Of a stretch of 38,913 nt of DNA, positions 1 to 38,913 are shown in pieces. The notes beneath the pieces were generated by a model. It saw only the letters and a program-made list of their open reading frames with translations, had not been told where the DNA came from and searched no databases. A program made the position numbers and the translations under genes. The DNA is from a virus: the IMG/VR virus record IMGVR_UViG_3300005441_000015, positions 1 through 38,913 of that record, one strand, 5' to 3'. The first letter of the stretch is position 1. The number at the start of each line of letters is the position of its first letter.

Positions 1-86
1 GAATGTAATTTATTCAAATTTTCTGTTGATTCTAGGTTTTCCCTTTCGAGAAATTCCCAGACGCTGATATGTTTTAGTGCAGACAT
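1..86 (-). CDS. Small ORF cut by the window start, first gene of the leftward recombination operon
   Basis: The ATG at 86 follows a GGAGATTCA ribosome-binding site, and 28 codons stay open to the window edge (begins MSALKHISVWEFLEREN). I do not recognise the peptide. If the sequence is circular, it continues into 38913 and ends after two more codons with TAA at 38909-38907, just ahead of the ribosome-binding site of the gene at 38896. That gives a 30-residue product. It would be the first cistron transcribed from the leftward promoter at 165-194. The circular joining is an inference. Confidence 0.5.
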   Translation of the reverse strand, partial: MSALKHISVWEFLERENLESTENLNKLH

Positions 87-124
87 TGAATCTCCATTCT
101 TGTCTATTTTCTAGGTTAAGACCG

Positions 125-153
125 CCTCCTGTGTAGTTGCAGGAGGTTTTTTT
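125..153 (+). terminator. Rho-independent terminator for rightward transcripts
   Basis: Stem CCTCCTG (125-131) pairs with CAGGAGG (140-146) around an 8-nt loop and is followed by seven T. On the plus strand this is a classic intrinsic terminator just upstream of the rightward promoter. It would stop read-through from beyond the window edge. On the minus strand the U-tract would precede the stem, so there it is only a hairpin in the 5' leader of the recombination operon. Confidence 0.75.
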
Positions 154-164
154 ATTCGTTTACG

Positions 165-194
165 AGTATACGAATTTGACTAAATTTAAGTCAA
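165..194 (-). promoter_or_regulatory. Leftward sigma70-type promoter for the recombination operon
   Basis: On the minus strand TTGACT (complement of 189-194) is 18 nt from TATACT (complement of 165-170). Both hexamers are 5/6 matches to consensus. The -35 box is the right arm of the palindrome at 176-194. It would drive the ORF at 86 and, across the junction, the small ORF, bet and the exonuclease. Confidence 0.6.
176..194. promoter_or_regulatory. Palindromic operator shared by both divergent promoters
   Basis: TTGACTAAATTTAAGTCAA is a 19-bp dyad with six perfect pairs in each arm and one mismatch pair inside. Each arm is the -35 box of one of the two divergent promoters, so a dimer bound here would block both. 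The adjacent 62-residue HTH protein is the obvious candidate ligand; that link is an inference. Confidence 0.6.
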
Positions 195-204
195 CATATA
201 CAAT
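176..204 (+). promoter_or_regulatory. Rightward sigma70-type promoter for the regulator and early genes
   Basis: TTGACT (176-181), a 17-nt spacer and TACAAT (199-204) give two 5/6 matches at ideal spacing. The predicted start is near 211, about 17 nt before the regulator's ATG at 228. The -35 box is the left arm of the palindrome. Confidence 0.75.
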
Positions 205-227: not shown

Positions 228-416
228 ATGAAGCTAAAAGAGTATTTTGCCAAACATACTGTCAACAAGACCAAATGGTGTGCCAAACACAACATCTCGC
301 GTGCCACCATCAATAATATATTGGGTGGAAAGAAGACGACCTTAGAGATGGCTGTTAAAATCTATAAGGCGACCAATAGAGAGGTCACCCCTATGGAATT
401 AGGTGTCTTGCCCTAG
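228..416 (+). CDS. Small XRE/Cro-like HTH regulator
   Basis: This 62-residue protein is almost entirely one helix-turn-helix domain. Residues about 14-28 (TKWCAKHNISRATINN) fit the paired helices, and the following LGGKKTTLEMAVKIYKAT matches the helix that follows the recognition helix in Cro/CI-type domains. There is no dimerisation or RecA-cleavage domain, so it resembles Cro or an antitoxin-type regulator more than a full CI repressor. The ATG follows AAGGAATTT, a good ribosome-binding site. It is the first gene of the rightward early operon and sits directly downstream of the palindromic operator, which suggests that it controls itself and the leftward operon. No other candidate repressor is visible in the window. 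Confidence 0.75.
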   Translation: MKLKEYFAKHTVNKTKWCAKHNISRATINNILGGKKTTLEMAVKIYKATNREVTPMELGVLP

Positions 417-459: not shown

Positions 460-915
460 ATGTATCAGTTCTGGATCGACACTATTCCTGTATCTTGGTC
501 CGCTCCCATCAAGGGTAAGCATGGCTTCTTTGATAAGAAGTCTAAGCAAAAAGATCTTGTTCGTTATCAACTCAAAGCACTCTATAAAGATAAGCCCCTT
601 TCTGAGCCCGTTTCTTTAGAATTCACCTTCTATTTACCCATCCCTAAAAGTGCATCGAAAAAGAAAAAACAAATGATGCTCGATAATCTCATTTCACCCA
701 CTACCCCAGATACTACAAACATGCAAAAGCTCTATGAGGATTGCCTGCAAAACATCGTGATTGAAAATGACCGCTTGTCAAATAAAATCTCGTCGGTTAG
801 ATATTACTCAAATACGCCCGGAATTCTAATAACCGTTAGACCTTGGCGAGAAGAAAACCAACCAAAAAAGGAGATTTATGAACCAAGATCAACTCAAGCA
901 ACTCATCAACTTTGA
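460..915 (+). CDS. rusA: RusA-like Holliday junction resolvase
   Basis: This 151-residue protein fits the RusA endonuclease family, dimeric magnesium-dependent nucleases that cut four-way DNA junctions. The family signature is a proline/aspartate motif, a lysine and further acidic residues. It is seen at about residues 85-108 as PDTTNMQKLYEDCL and then IENDR. The N-terminal beta region (PVSWSAPIKGKHGF) and the LEFTFYLPIPKSASKKKK stretch are also typical. The last roughly 25 residues extend past the usual family end and overlap the next gene by 38 nt. The ATG follows GAGGCTAT. With Bet and YqaJ encoded elsewhere in the window, it probably resolves recombination or replication intermediates before packaging. 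Confidence 0.8.
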   Translation: MYQFWIDTIPVSWSAPIKGKHGFFDKKSKQKDLVRYQLKALYKDKPLSEPVSLEFTFYLPIPKSASKKKKQMMLDNLISPTTPDTTNMQKLYEDCLQNIVIENDRLSNKISSVRYYSNTPGILITVRPWREENQPKKEIYEPRSTQATHQL

Positions 916-7922: not shown

Positions 7923-9968
7923 ATGACGCTATTTCCGCAACTTTCCAATACCTTTTACACAGACAACGATCACGATGTCCTAAAGTTAATGGATTATACG
8001 TATGCCAAGAATATCCAAATTAATCAATCTTTTTGGTCTGAAGCTGAAATTGATCAACGTTTCAAAGCAGGGGATCAGACTCTTTGGAATGATATCTATG
8101 GGAACCTTCCTGCTTTTCGTCGTCGCCAATTCAATTTCAATCGAATTCGCCGAATCACGAATATGATTACAGGCTATCAACGCCAGCACCGAAAATCGAC
8201 TGTGTGTACCCCTATTGAGAATTCAGATGAAATGACCTCAAATCAATTTAGCAAAATTCTGATGTGGGATGATCAAAAGAATCATGTTTTGGAAACAATT
8301 TCAGATGCTTTTGATGGAGCAGTGACTACAGGGATGAATTTGCTTTCAGTTTGGATGGATTATCGAAATGACCCTGTAAATGGTGATCTTGCCGTCGATA
8401 ACGTCGCATTTAATGGCTACCTCATCGATCCCTATTTCAAAAAGATGGACCTTTCAGATTGTAATTCAATTTGGACTCGTAAATATTTGTCGCGAAATCA
8501 GGTGAAATCGCTTGTTCCTGGAAGGGAAGGTGAAATCTTAGAAATGCGTGGCTGGGGCAATCGGGATGGCAAATTCCAATTCATGCCTGAATCTTATAAC
8601 TACGGCATGCAAGATCTTTTAACTTATGATGAGTTTTGGTATTTAGATTCTCGAAAACAAAAGCTTCTTTGCGATGTGCAAACAGGCGAAACGATGGAGT
8701 GGAGAGGACAGGATGAAGATCTACAAGACTTTTTGCGAACTTATCCCCAAATTCATACTTTGGAGCAAGAAATCCAAACCGTCAAGCTTGCTATTGTTGT
8801 TCAGGGTAAGGTTATGTATCATGGTCCTAATCCTCTTGGTATTGATCGCTACCCTTTTGTGCCAGTATGGGCTTATTACGAGCCTCAAATGTCAGACTTC
8901 CCGTGGAGAGTCCAAGGAGTTGTTAGAGGACTTAGAGACGCGCAATATCTATATAATCGACGTCGAATAATTGAATTAGACATCTTAGAATCCCAAATCA
9001 CTTCAGGCTTTATGTATAAGGAGAACGCTTTAGTTAATCCTAAAGATGTGTTCTTGCAAGGTCAAGGAAGAGGACTCGCACTTAAAGCTAATGCCCAGCC
9101 TGGCGTAGACGTAATGAAGATCGAGGCTCCACAGATACCTCCCTCCATGATCCAGCTTTCAGAGCTTCTTGGTAAGGAGATCAGTGAGGTATCGGGAGTT
9201 AATGAAGAGCTTCTTGGGTCAGCCCAAGATGATAAAGCCGGTATCTTAGGAATGCTACGTCAGGGCGCGGGTTTAACTACACTTCAAGGCCTTTTTGATA
9301 ATTTAGATTACGCACAAAAAATGCTTGGCGATATCAGAATATCCCTTATTCAGTCGAACTGGACACCTGGAAAAGTTCAAAGAGTCATAGGAGAAGAGCC
9401 TTCTCCACAGTTTTATAATCGAGCTTTTGGTAAATACAAAGCTATCGTCGAAGATGGTTTAAATACCTCGACCCAGCGCCAGATGCAGTTTGCCCAACTT
9501 CTCCAATTAAGAGAGCTTGGCATTCCTGTTCCTGCCGAGATACTTGTCGAATCTTCTACATTACAAAATAAGGAGAAACTTACCAATGCCCTCGGTCAAC
9601 AAGAACAACAAGCAGCGCAAGCGGCCCAACTCCAGCAAGAAACGCAAATTGAACTCCTCAAAGCGCAAATTGAAGACCTCCACGCAAGAGCCGTTGCTAA
9701 CCAAGGACTCGGTCACGAACGTGCAAGCCGTATTCAGGAAAACCAAGCTCTTGCCGTTGAAAGACGCGCCGCCGCCCATAAAGATCTCGACCAAGGACTT
9801 CTCGATAAAGCAAAAGCAATTAAAGAGCTTACTTCAATCGATTTGGAGCAGGTTCACAGAGCAGTTGAGATTTTAAAACTGATTCAGGGAAATCCTGAAG
9901 AGAAAGAAAAGCCAGCGTCTTCTCCCGAGAAAAAGAAGAAAACGCCAGCTAAGAAAACAGCTGCTTAG
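7923..9968 (+). CDS. Portal protein, P22 gp1-like
   Basis: This 681-residue protein resembles the P22 portal family, in which twelve subunits form the vertex ring for DNA entry and exit. P22 gp1 has 725 residues. Typical features are the N-terminal FRRRQFNFNRIRRITNMITGYQRQHRKS, the FNGYLIDPYF and LSRNQVKSLVPG region, and the helical GLRDAQYLYNRRRIIELDILESQITSG stem. The SGVNEELLG segment is typical too. Residues about 555-640 are a Gln/Ala-rich coiled coil like the P22 barrel helix, and the last 20 residues are a Lys/Pro-rich tail. AGG precedes the ATG by about 7 nt. It is separated from terL by the leftward block, which is unusual. Confidence 0.9.
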   Translation: MTLFPQLSNTFYTDNDHDVLKLMDYTYAKNIQINQSFWSEAEIDQRFKAGDQTLWNDIYGNLPAFRRRQFNFNRIRRITNMITGYQRQHRKSTVCTPIENSDEMTSNQFSKILMWDDQKNHVLETISDAFDGAVTTGMNLLSVWMDYRNDPVNGDLAVDNVAFNGYLIDPYFKKMDLSDCNSIWTRKYLSRNQVKSLVPGREGEILEMRGWGNRDGKFQFMPESYNYGMQDLLTYDEFWYLDSRKQKLLCDVQTGETMEWRGQDEDLQDFLRTYPQIHTLEQEIQTVKLAIVVQGKVMYHGPNPLGIDRYPFVPVWAYYEPQMSDFPWRVQGVVRGLRDAQYLYNRRRIIELDILESQITSGFMYKENALVNPKDVFLQGQGRGLALKANAQPGVDVMKIEAPQIPPSMIQLSELLGKEISEVSGVNEELLGSAQDDKAGILGMLRQGAGLTTLQGLFDNLDYAQKMLGDIRISLIQSNWTPGKVQRVIGEEPSPQFYNRAFGKYKAIVEDGLNTSTQRQMQFAQLLQLRELGIPVPAEILVESSTLQNKEKLTNALGQQEQQAAQAAQLQQETQIELLKAQIEDLHARAVANQGLGHERASRIQENQALAVERRAAAHKDLDQGLLDKAKAIKELTSIDLEQVHRAVEILKLIQGNPEEKEKPASSPEKKKKTPAKKTAA

Positions 9969-10774
9969 AAACGGTATCCAAATGTCAGTCGAGATCCCAA
10001 CACATGGGTTGTCTCAACATTAGGGATTTGGAGATAATAAGGTTCAAATTGGATTTCCCAATTTTTCAAATCTCCTAAATGCCAAAGAAAGGGCATCCCA
10101 ATTTCACAAAGCCATCTTGTATCGTGAATTGAGACTGCTTTTGTCTTATACTTCACAGGATTCTTTACATTATGAAATTCAGTAGTCGGGTCTCCGATTG
10201 TTTGTGGTGGAGCATTTTCATGTCTGACAATCGTCAAATTGCGTTTATTATGGAGGTGAGGGACTCTTCTCATTTCATATCTTTTTTGACTCAGGCTTAA
10301 ATATCCTTTCACATGAAGACCTAATTCAAACATTTCACCAAATTGGTGCATATATTTCATACCCAAAGTTCCGTAGCTCCAATTCTTTAATTTCCCAATT
10401 TGCTTTTCAACTGAAAACATTGAGAAACCAGACCCTATATACCCTATGATATGGTCTTGAAATGATAAAGTGTGATGATAACCAAGACGCAATTCTCCAT
10501 TGACGAAATGATCAAGGTGGACATTGTTTTTGTCTTTCGTATGCCAAAGAGAAGCAACCTTCATTTCAAATCCTGTGTAAACTGAATCGGGCTTAATGCG
10601 CTCATATCCCAAATTCAAGAATCCAAAATTGAATCGATGTTCATATTCGGGAGTTTTCGGAATGTCTAAATGAATCAATGTTTGGGGGGTTATCTTTTGA
10701 GGGAGATCACCATCAGCACATAAAGAAACGAATGGGGTTAGCAAAGTTACACCAGAAAAAACCAGGGCTTTCAT
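9965..10774 (-). CDS. Predicted outer-membrane beta-barrel protein
   Basis: This 269-residue protein has a Sec signal peptide (MKALVFSGVTLLTPFVSLCA, cleavage near residue 20-21). Many alternating amphipathic strands follow, such as HRFNFGFLNLGYERI, GELRLGYHHTLSF and IIGYIGSGFSMF. It ends in SRLTFGYRF; a C-terminal phenylalanine in an alternating strand is the signal recognised by the BAM insertion machine. I do not recognise the exact family. AAAAGGA precedes the ATG. The stop interlocks with the portal stop on the other strand. A phage surface protein of this kind may block superinfection, as Lom-type or Cor-type proteins are thought to alter the cell surface, but this is an inference. Confidence 0.7.
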   Translation of the reverse strand: MKALVFSGVTLLTPFVSLCADGDLPQKITPQTLIHLDIPKTPEYEHRFNFGFLNLGYERIKPDSVYTGFEMKVASLWHTKDKNNVHLDHFVNGELRLGYHHTLSFQDHIIGYIGSGFSMFSVEKQIGKLKNWSYGTLGMKYMHQFGEMFELGLHVKGYLSLSQKRYEMRRVPHLHNKRNLTIVRHENAPPQTIGDPTTEFHNVKNPVKYKTKAVSIHDTRWLCEIGMPFLWHLGDLKNWEIQFEPYYLQIPNVETTHVLGSRLTFGYRF

Positions 10775-12046: not shown

Positions 12047-12913
12047 ATGAAAACATTAGCCGTATTATCAATTCTGAATTTAACATCTCTTTTTGCAGAT
12101 TACCATGATCCTGTAGCATCCTTCCATGTCGATGCAACCGATTATAAAGGTATGCCAGAAGCTCATTTAAGCTTTAATCATCAATCAACTTTCGAAGTCG
12201 AAGACAGTACAGCAATTATTTTACATGGTTTAATCAACCCCTATTCGCCTAAAACGTTCCACAATGAGCTAGGGATTGGCTTTCGAAGATTATACGAAAA
12301 TTTCGGCTTTGGAACGAATATTGTCTATGCCCATCGAAACAGCTTTGGGTTTTTTAATCATCATATTATTCCTGGTATTGAGCTTTTCTACGATCATTTC
12401 GGCCTAATCTACAATCGATATGTGCCTATTAAGTCTCGTGTTGAATTCGAAGATATGAAATACTTGTTCCATGATGTATCTGAGCTCTCCTTATTTTATC
12501 GGCCTTCGAAAAAATACGAATTTAGTGTTACTCCGCATTTCAATCACCAGACTAAACGGGTCGGAATCCGTGGAGACATTAGCGCATTTGTTCATGACAA
12601 CGTCCAGCTCTCTTTAACTCCATACTTTGAGTATAACGTACAAAAAGGACTAAAATTGTCTGTTGGATATCACTTCGGTGGTGTACCAAAACTTATCAAT
12701 CATAAGATTTCCAAATCTCACGATTTTTACTTCACAACGGATAAAAAAGAGATTGCCAAAATTGCTGCTCCGAATCCTGCTGTATTAGTACCTTCTCCAG
12801 CTCCAATCATTATTCATCCTCCTTCAGATGAAAACGAAAAGCCTAAAGAAAACAAGAATTGGTGGGATCGTATCATCACTTGGAGAGTATCAGAGCAAGC
12901 TGCTAGCAAATAA
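12047..12913 (+). CDS. Outer-membrane barrel protein, inverse-autotransporter-like
   Basis: This 288-residue protein has a signal peptide (MKTLAVLSILNLTSLFA, cleaved near residue 17). A series of beta strands follows: NELGIGFRRLYENFGFGTN, GIELFYDHFGLIYNRYVPI and KGLKLSVGYHFGG. The 'G-x-G-x-R-R-L' strand followed by NHH-x-x-P-G-x-E-x-F-Y-D-x-F-G is reminiscent of the inverse autotransporter beta-domain, as in intimin/invasin. After the barrel, about residues 240-288 are Pro/Lys-rich and end with WWDRIITW, with no passenger Ig domains. So it would be a barrel-only relative. It is an accessory gene on a phage; surface modification or receptor masking is inferred. Confidence 0.6.
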   Translation: MKTLAVLSILNLTSLFADYHDPVASFHVDATDYKGMPEAHLSFNHQSTFEVEDSTAIILHGLINPYSPKTFHNELGIGFRRLYENFGFGTNIVYAHRNSFGFFNHHIIPGIELFYDHFGLIYNRYVPIKSRVEFEDMKYLFHDVSELSLFYRPSKKYEFSVTPHFNHQTKRVGIRGDISAFVHDNVQLSLTPYFEYNVQKGLKLSVGYHFGGVPKLINHKISKSHDFYFTTDKKEIAKIAAPNPAVLVPSPAPIIIHPPSDENEKPKENKNWWDRIITWRVSEQAASK

Positions 12914-36772: not shown

Positions 36773-37122
36773 CTTTACTTGAACTGGTTCTTATTTGTAG
36801 CTTGGCATTTTTCGTTCTATGTCAAATCTTCAACGGCATCGTTAATCTATGTACTGCCAGATATATGAGGAAAAAATCCGAACTACAGGAAAAGATTAGA
36901 GAAGATGAAGCTAGATCGCACTATGAACAATCGGAAAGAATGATCATGAGGTTTAATCATATCTCAGATCGTCTGAATGAGGCAGAAGATATAGCAACGT
37001 TTCGATTTGAAGAAATCATGCAGGCTTTAGAAGAGATGCCACAACAACCCATAGGGATTAAGAAAAGAGGAAAATATAAGCCTCGAAAGCCCAAGGCTAT
37101 TGAACATAAAGAGATCCAATAA
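36769..37122 (+). CDS. Membrane-anchored coiled-coil protein, inner-spanin-like
   Basis: A 117-residue protein starting at GTG 36769 after GAGGCAAT. One N-terminal membrane helix (residues about 2-22, LLELVLICSLAFFVLCQIFNG) is followed by a coiled coil (about 35-90) and a Lys/Arg-rich C-terminus. Size and layout match inner-membrane spanins (Rz class), but no nested or adjacent outer spanin is seen; the lipoprotein at 7069-7218 could be one far away. Speculative. Confidence 0.5.
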   Translation: MTLLELVLICSLAFFVLCQIFNGIVNLCTARYMRKKSELQEKIREDEARSHYEQSERMIMRFNHISDRLNEAEDIATFRFEEIMQALEEMPQQPIGIKKRGKYKPRKPKAIEHKEIQ

Positions 37123-37150
37123 AAAACCCCACCAGAAAACCGATGGGGTT
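37119..37150 (-). terminator. Rho-independent terminator of the recombination operon
   Basis: On the minus strand AACCCCA (37150-37144) pairs with TGGGGTT (37131-37125), followed by a T-run (37124-37119). It lies about 30 nt after the exonuclease stop and just beyond the end of the rightward gene at 37122. Confidence 0.85.
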
Positions 37151-37180
37151 AACAAGAAGGATTGGTATGAACGAGCTTTT

Positions 37181-38035
37181 TTACGCTCCATCTCTTGAAA
37201 TAACAGAAATGCGCCATTTCTCGCAAGGTGGTTTTCGATACGCTTCGAGATCAATTCCGATGAGTTCAGGAACTAATTTGTAATCGACTTGACCTTTACA
37301 AACTGAGCGCGTCATCTTACCTTTAGAGCACATTGTGTTTTTGCCAGCAGCCATTTCGATGAGCTTCTCTTTAATCCCATCTTGAGCAGACTTCAATACA
37401 TCAATTTCATCAGAGACTTCTTTGTATTCGTCCATCAGCTCTAAAAAGGTTTTCTCTTCTTTGACTACATAGTCTTTGTCAGTCAGCTCAGGGGCCTCTT
37501 TTTTTACCATCAGATCATAGAACTTCTCTTCTTCTTTGATCATCTTGGCGATGAACTTGTCATCAGGAAATACCTCAACTAAGACACCTTGTTTGCCATT
37601 ATATGAGAAGTAATAACCCTTAACGGCTCCCGTCACAGAGAATTGATGTTGAACTTGAGCCATATAGTGCTCAGGGATGACACCTTTTTCAGCTAAAGAG
37701 TGGACTTCTTTGTTTGGGCATTTGATCTCGACGATCGTAGTCCCATCAAAGCTAATGCCATCTAAAGAAGCCATTTGCCAGTCACGTTCTTTATGAATCA
37801 CAACTTTTGGAAGAACAGGCATTCCGGTTAGTCTCTCGAAGCAATCACGAGCTTCTGATTCCATGGCAGTCCCTCTAGCCATCGCTCCATTTTGTTCTTG
37901 TTCAGTCCCGAAGACTTTTTCAAGCCATAGCTCATACTTTGTGCGATAGGGAGAAAGGCCTAAAATAACCCCTGCATCGGATGCCCCTATCTTGGACCTA
38001 CGCAGATCTTTCCACTCTTGTGTGCCTTGTTCCAT
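37181..38035 (-). CDS. YqaJ-type viral recombinase exonuclease
   Basis: A 284-residue protein with the YqaJ (lambda-exonuclease-like) fold. The signature RRSKIGASDAGVILGLSPYRTKYELW (residues 12-37), the E-rich helix ARGTAMESEARDCFERLTG, and LDGISFDGTTIVEIKCPNKEVH, the D...EIKCP catalytic block, are present. QVQHQFSVTGAVKGYYFSY follows. It degrades 5' strands to give 3' single-stranded tails for Bet. The C-terminal about 80 residues are a helical extension. The ATG overlaps the bet stop (TAATG), so the pair is coupled. Confidence 0.95.
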   Translation of the reverse strand: MEQGTQEWKDLRRSKIGASDAGVILGLSPYRTKYELWLEKVFGTEQEQNGAMARGTAMESEARDCFERLTGMPVLPKVVIHKERDWQMASLDGISFDGTTIVEIKCPNKEVHSLAEKGVIPEHYMAQVQHQFSVTGAVKGYYFSYNGKQGVLVEVFPDDKFIAKMIKEEEKFYDLMVKKEAPELTDKDYVVKEEKTFLELMDEYKEVSDEIDVLKSAQDGIKEKLIEMAAGKNTMCSKGKMTRSVCKGQVDYKLVPELIGIDLEAYRKPPCEKWRISVISRDGA

Positions 38036-38787
38036 TATGTGCTCTCAATGGTTGCAAGCTGCTTGGAGACAGACTTCATGATGCTGGCGTACTTAGTTGC
38101 CGGAAGCTTCTCAAAGCTATCCAAAGCTGCCCAATCTAGTAACTTGATTCTGAATTCAGGGATGTCTTTTAGACTCTTCTCAAGCTCTTCAAGCTGATAG
38201 GCGGTGATGTATTCAGGAAGTTTAGGCTTGTCTTCCTCAACTGTGGCTTGAGCCATCTCTTCTTGGGTATAGAGGCCGCTTAATTCAGCGGGAAACGCTT
38301 TTCTTAATGCGAGCGACTCAGCACACTTCGCAAGCATGACATGCGGCATACGATCCCAGAATTGAGTCGGATGGCCATCCTTAGTCTTTTGGACGTATTC
38401 ATCATAAAAGGCTGTGACAGCCACTTCATGCCATGTTCCATCTTGAGTGCACTTCTTGACATAAGCAGTCGCAGAAACGATTTCATTCTTATCGTTGTAA
38501 ACATAATCCGCTTGTTTTCCAGGGGCATAACGGCCGGTTCTTTCAGCGATTAATCTAAAACCATCAATAGAGGTCTGGAAGCTAAAGACGTTCTTCCCAA
38601 GCTTTGAATCCCATCTAGGAACTGGATGGATCTGTTTCATCTCAGGACTTAAACCAGTTCTTCGGCACACATTGCCAAAAAGAACCACCTCATCCGGAGA
38701 TGCCCCTTTCATGTATGTTCTCGTCCAAAGCTCGAATTGCTTTGCAAAATCATCACTCTCTTCATAGTGTTGCAATGTATTGGTCAT
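38035..38787 (-). CDS. bet: Single-strand annealing protein, Bet/Red-beta type
   Basis: This 250-residue protein belongs to the Bet/RecT annealing proteins. LFGNVCRRTGLSPEMKQIHPVPRWD, then FQTSIDGFRLIAERTGRYAPG and WDRMPHVMLAKCAESLALRKAFPAELSGLYTQEEM are characteristic. It anneals complementary single strands made by the partner exonuclease, for recombination and for repair of replicating phage DNA. I start at the ATG 38787, which follows GAGAGGGAAT; the long frame from 38859 overlaps another gene. It overlaps the exonuclease start by one base. Confidence 0.92.
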   Translation of the reverse strand: MTNTLQHYEESDDFAKQFELWTRTYMKGASPDEVVLFGNVCRRTGLSPEMKQIHPVPRWDSKLGKNVFSFQTSIDGFRLIAERTGRYAPGKQADYVYNDKNEIVSATAYVKKCTQDGTWHEVAVTAFYDEYVQKTKDGHPTQFWDRMPHVMLAKCAESLALRKAFPAELSGLYTQEEMAQATVEEDKPKLPEYITAYQLEELEKSLKDIPEFRIKLLDWAALDSFEKLPATKYASIMKSVSKQLATIEST

Positions 38788-38896
38788 ATTCCCTCTCTTC
38801 TTGGTTACTAGCGTTAAAGTATGCGTCCTCGCCGTCATCGATTCCCTCATTGGTTTCATCTAACCATTCCTCATATTCCCAACCATAAGCATTCAT
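38762..38896 (-). CDS. Small acidic hypothetical protein
   Basis: A 44-residue very acidic protein (MNAYGWEYEEWLDETNEGID...). AAGGATGTCCTT precedes the ATG, and the end overlaps the start of bet by 26 nt. The acidic, DNA-mimic-like charge is notable, but the peptide is short and not recognised. It would be the second cistron of the leftward operon, after the gene at 1-86. Confidence 0.6.
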   Translation of the reverse strand: MNAYGWEYEEWLDETNEGIDDGEDAYFNASNQEEREYDQYIATL

Positions 38897-38913
38897 AAGG
38901 ACATCCTTATCTG

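Follow-up and report, generated by a model that had tools for sequence, protein, structure and literature searches.

Back-to-back promoters between a YdaS/Cro-like gene and recombination genes in a new phage lineage

In prophage CP-933P of E. coli O157:H7, the small HTH protein YdaS, a functional equivalent of Cro, binds DNA lying between divergent promoters, and the YdaS/PaaR2-YdaS region of this prophage combines it with a short intergenic region and divergent sigma70 promoters (PMC8630535). PY54, one of the telomere phages, has a Cro-type protein, PY54 Cro, whose single palindromic operator is flanked by divergent genes (PMC4488713), and the HTH regulator YdaT has as its operator the inverted repeat TTGATT-N6-AATCAA with a -35-like half-site (PMC9986795). 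In the Pc/Pr region of plasmid pLS20, divergent promoters lie on shared DNA and polymerase uses one of them at a time (PMC4207663). We compared with these systems an intergenic region in a viral contig of 38,913 nucleotides (IMG/VR record IMGVR_UViG_3300005441_000015, analysed over its whole length and called the window below), which lies between recombination genes and the gene for a 62-aa HTH protein. The divergent partner in CP-933P is a repressor/toxin-antitoxin operon and the operators are multiple, whereas in the window recombination genes take that place and a repressor partner was not found. Across from Cro, PY54 carries the cI prophage repressor, and its operator has been shown experimentally, whereas the operator in the window is putative. 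The -10 and -35 boxes of pLS20 fall on the same positions and a DNA loop plays a part, whereas in the window the close packing is confined to the -35 boxes. YdaT, a tetrameric equivalent of CII, has an additional long helix for which the 62-aa protein has no counterpart. Judged by its sequence, the region is real and conserved; it is a phage control region of an ordinary kind, found in a lineage that is new.

The initial annotation of this DNA had proposed two divergent promoters whose -35 boxes are the arms of a single palindrome, with a small HTH ORF starting 33 nt beyond. Both proposals were confirmed. Near-consensus -35 and -10 boxes occur twice within 165-204, pointing apart and with spacers of 17 and 18 nt, inside the 16-18 nt range of a divergent sigma70 pair (Table 1), and the 62-aa ORF starts at 228, 33 nt after position 194. 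The two -35 boxes are 7 bp apart and together span 19 bp, each promoter scores 10/12, and transcription starts are predicted near 211 (rightward) and 158 (leftward). A pair of such quality and packing is far from chance: the window has one where 0.017 would be expected, and for the intergenic region P is about 0.0003. Immediately past the predicted start of leftward transcription lies an intrinsic terminator for rightward transcription, also present in related contigs with different stem sequences, which would insulate the rightward promoter and put a hairpin in the leftward leader.

Table 1. Features of the control region and of the flanking gene units (positions in the window)
Feature	Position	Strand	Details
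82-aa ORF, start of first leftward gene	1..86	-	Starts at 86, crosses window end
Rightward intrinsic terminator	124..154	+	Hairpin 124-147 plus T-run
Leftward sigma70-type promoter (predicted)	165..194	-	-35 TTGACT 194-189, 18-nt spacer, -10 TATACT 170-165
Rightward sigma70-type promoter (predicted)	176..204	+	-35 TTGACT 176-181, 17-nt spacer, -10 TACAAT 199-204
Imperfect 19-bp palindrome TTGACTAAATTTAAGTCAA	176..194		Mainly two back-to-back -35 boxes; 8/9 pairs
62-aa Cro/YdaS-like HTH protein	228..416	+	First gene of rightward unit; presumed autoregulator
RusA-type Holliday junction resolvase	460..915	+	Second rightward gene; Pfam PF05866, E 4.2e-19
Intrinsic terminator closing leftward unit	37125..37150	-	11-pair stem, T-run; just after exonuclease gene
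YqaJ/RecE-like exonuclease	37181..38035	-	Third leftward gene; Pfam PF09588, E 1.4e-30; PHROG 434, E 5.6e-60
RecT-family single-strand annealing protein	38035..38859	-	Second leftward gene; Pfam PF03837, E 1.8e-31; PHROG 2780

The leftward unit reads across the ends of the window. Contig IMGVR_UViG_3300025934_000729 (L002/L003, 5.6 kb) carries both sides together with the entire join, and both window ends fall inside one 82-aa ORF, so the ends join; 11 bp of L003 between the last base (38913) and the first base (1) are absent from the window. A recombination operon had been proposed on this side and is borne out by the succession of 82-aa ORF, RecT and YqaJ exonuclease genes. Since a terminator follows the exonuclease gene and a scan of 36900-38913 found no promoter-like site, the leftward promoter most likely drives all three genes as one recombination unit. 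Rightward, the Cro/YdaS-like gene is followed by the RusA resolvase gene, small ORFs, a GroES-like ORF and the large terminase gene. The description of this side as a regulatory/early operon is apt in that a Cro-like gene comes first, but the label is loose for a series of genes that runs via RusA and the GroES-like ORF to the terminase. The window's terminase has matches in many phages, all below 60% identity.

Against the Pfam YdaS and Cro/C1 HTH families the 62-aa protein gives weak matches that stay below the curated cut-offs (PF13443, 17.4 bits against 22; PF15943, 15.3 against 30), and we therefore term it YdaS/Cro-like without filing it as a family member. A single-sequence search of the PDB returned chance matches only. 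A profile built from seven relatives has YdaS chains as its top match (E 5.6e-4), and an AlphaFold2 model (pLDDT 88) places the YdaS N-terminal domain of CP-933P first as the closest solved structure, both with VIA-align (Z 8.4, rmsd 2.2, 62 residues aligned; next Z 6.8) and with Foldseek (probability 1.00, with an E of 0.11 as for any protein so short). By these predictions the protein has the small-HTH fold of YdaS and Cro. Searches by tblastn found no relative of it among 50,697 phage records, so that the control region documented here belongs to a little-known phage group, and a search of a genome collection gave a single distant match, in an alphaproteobacterial assembly (32% identity).

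Related contigs (L004 (=L018, L019), L006 (=L016), L017, L007 (=L021) and L008 (=L020), with L017 spanning the promoter core and the HTH side only) share the divergent arrangement, in which the promoter pair lies between the 62-aa YdaS/Cro-like gene and the operon of the 82-aa ORF, RecT and YqaJ. Their HTH proteins are 55-69% identical to that of the window, and at four-fold degenerate positions the HTH gene shows only 8-50% identity with that of the window's lineage, on the few sites (12-14) available per comparison. About 60 bp around the promoters nevertheless align without gaps. All relatives keep the leftward -35 core TTGAC and the leftward -10 TA[TA]A[CT]T at 18 nt, and all keep the rightward -10 TAC[AT]AT; the rightward -35 is variable among lineages (TTGACT, TTGTCA, TTGGTA), and an extended -10 TG occurs in relatives with a weaker rightward -35, while the window, which has the best -35, has none. 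Independent promoter scans recovered the pair in L018, where it was the sole match, and in L021; in L020 the rightward promoter fell under the threshold. The L016 and L018 cores are nearly identical, but so is their left flank, and this likeness was therefore not taken to prove constraint; the upstream regions of two more distant HTH relatives (L022 and L023, 34-35% identity) do not align with the window core. Sequence comparison with the relatives is good evidence for both promoters.

We interpret the region, with a probability of roughly 70%, as a compact tailed-phage divergent control region with mutually exclusive back-to-back promoters, of which at least one is repressed from nearby by the 62-aa protein. 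The leftward promoter would direct transcription of the short recombination unit up to its terminator, and the rightward promoter that of the 62-aa protein and the genes downstream. As the boxes share 19 bp, RNA polymerase bound at one promoter would probably keep the other from being occupied, as on the overlapping promoters of pLS20 (PMC4207663). The binding site of the 62-aa protein is most likely within the core or next to it, from where the protein would repress one or both promoters, its own included, in the manner of Cro. Within this interpretation it is possible, though we hold it only tentatively, that the protein binds one or more core sites other than the palindrome, for example 154-183 over the leftward -10 and rightward -35, and that operator and recognition helix have changed together, lineage by lineage, leaving the palindrome with no role. 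Such drift is consistent with the variation among lineages of the recognition-helix residues (SRAT, SRQT, DKTT/DKMT), of the best dyads and of the dyad centres, and YdaS for its part binds over two stretches that contain several repeats (PMC8630535), but no alternative dyad is significant across lineages.

The initial annotation had instead placed the operator on the palindrome at 176-194. On this proposal a single dimer of the 62-aa protein would take the two -35 boxes as its half-sites and shut both promoters, silencing both directions through one 19-bp element. The palindrome has a single A/A mismatch and is the top dyad of the intergenic region, it adjoins a Cro/YdaS-like partner gene, and both the single palindromic operator of PY54 Cro (PMC4488713) and the site bound by YdaT (PMC9986795) offer precedents. 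As a palindrome, however, it is marginal against chance, with P=0.06 over all lengths and 0.02 at its own length in dinucleotide shuffles, and P=0.027 by column permutation; it occurs once in the whole window, where neither further copies nor half-sites beyond chance were found. The palindrome and the promoter pair are moreover not independent, since two TTGACT boxes facing apart automatically yield six of the nine pairs, so that only two of the three inner pairs are extra; these, together with the identical sixth base of the boxes, make slightly more symmetry than the promoters require. A second dyad, ATTCGTTTACGAGTATACGAAT (154-175, nine of 11 pairs), overlies the leftward -10 and is not conserved; it is about as strong as the first in the window, which also counts against singling out the palindrome.

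The relatives offer a clean comparison on this point: the promoter elements are kept and the symmetry is not. Around the window's centre (185), 8/9 pairs are symmetric in the window, 5/9 in L018, 3/9 in L021 and 3/9 in L020, even though the HTH gene and the promoters persist in these lineages, and no dyad centre common to all of them, the best being 174.5, goes beyond chance (P=0.24-0.37). The palindrome is thus unsupported as an operator conserved alongside its regulator, and its symmetry arises mostly as a side effect of two near-consensus -35 boxes that point in opposite directions, a warning that two good back-to-back -35 boxes will always resemble an operator. We consider binding of one dimer at 176-194 a reasonable idea but doubtful, and the stricter claim that the -35 boxes are the regulator's half-sites, with repressor and RNA polymerase competing for exactly the same bases, slightly more doubtful still. 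In L021, a perfect 12-bp palindrome, GTAAATATTTAC, upstream of the HTH gene at 1648 and a TACCA-TT-TGGTA dyad were also seen, both with centres that differ from the window's. That the 62-aa protein acts elsewhere, in phage or host, and that the region runs on polymerase competition alone would fit with conservation having identified no operator, but is improbable given that its gene lies first beside the region in every relative of the phage group, the usual place of an autoregulator.

The initial annotation had also called the region a minimal one-operator switch. A search of the window and the related records, all of them possibly incomplete, turned up neither an integrase (PF00589) nor a serine recombinase (PF00239), and an S24-type repressor (PF00717) was absent from all six records, a search that a repressor without an S24 domain would escape. 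A lambda-type lysogeny switch is therefore unsupported, and no lysogeny switch is recognisable; the leftward genes, where such a switch would have an S24 CI-type repressor, are the 82-aa ORF, RecT and the exonuclease.

Several other genes were recorded in passing. In the L007 record, the small genes of the rightward unit include another HTH gene (L031:1429-1692, 87 aa) whose HTH_3 match passes the cut-off; neither the window nor any of the other four records has such a match. The GroES-like (Cpn10) ORF of the phage lies at 1687-1953 (Pfam E 2.5e-11), and a similar ORF is found at L031:2079-2351. Two further ORFs of the window, at 9965-10774 (-) and 12047-12913 (+), neither with a Pfam match and the former also with no match among phage records, have signal-peptide-like starts and the look of outer-membrane proteins.
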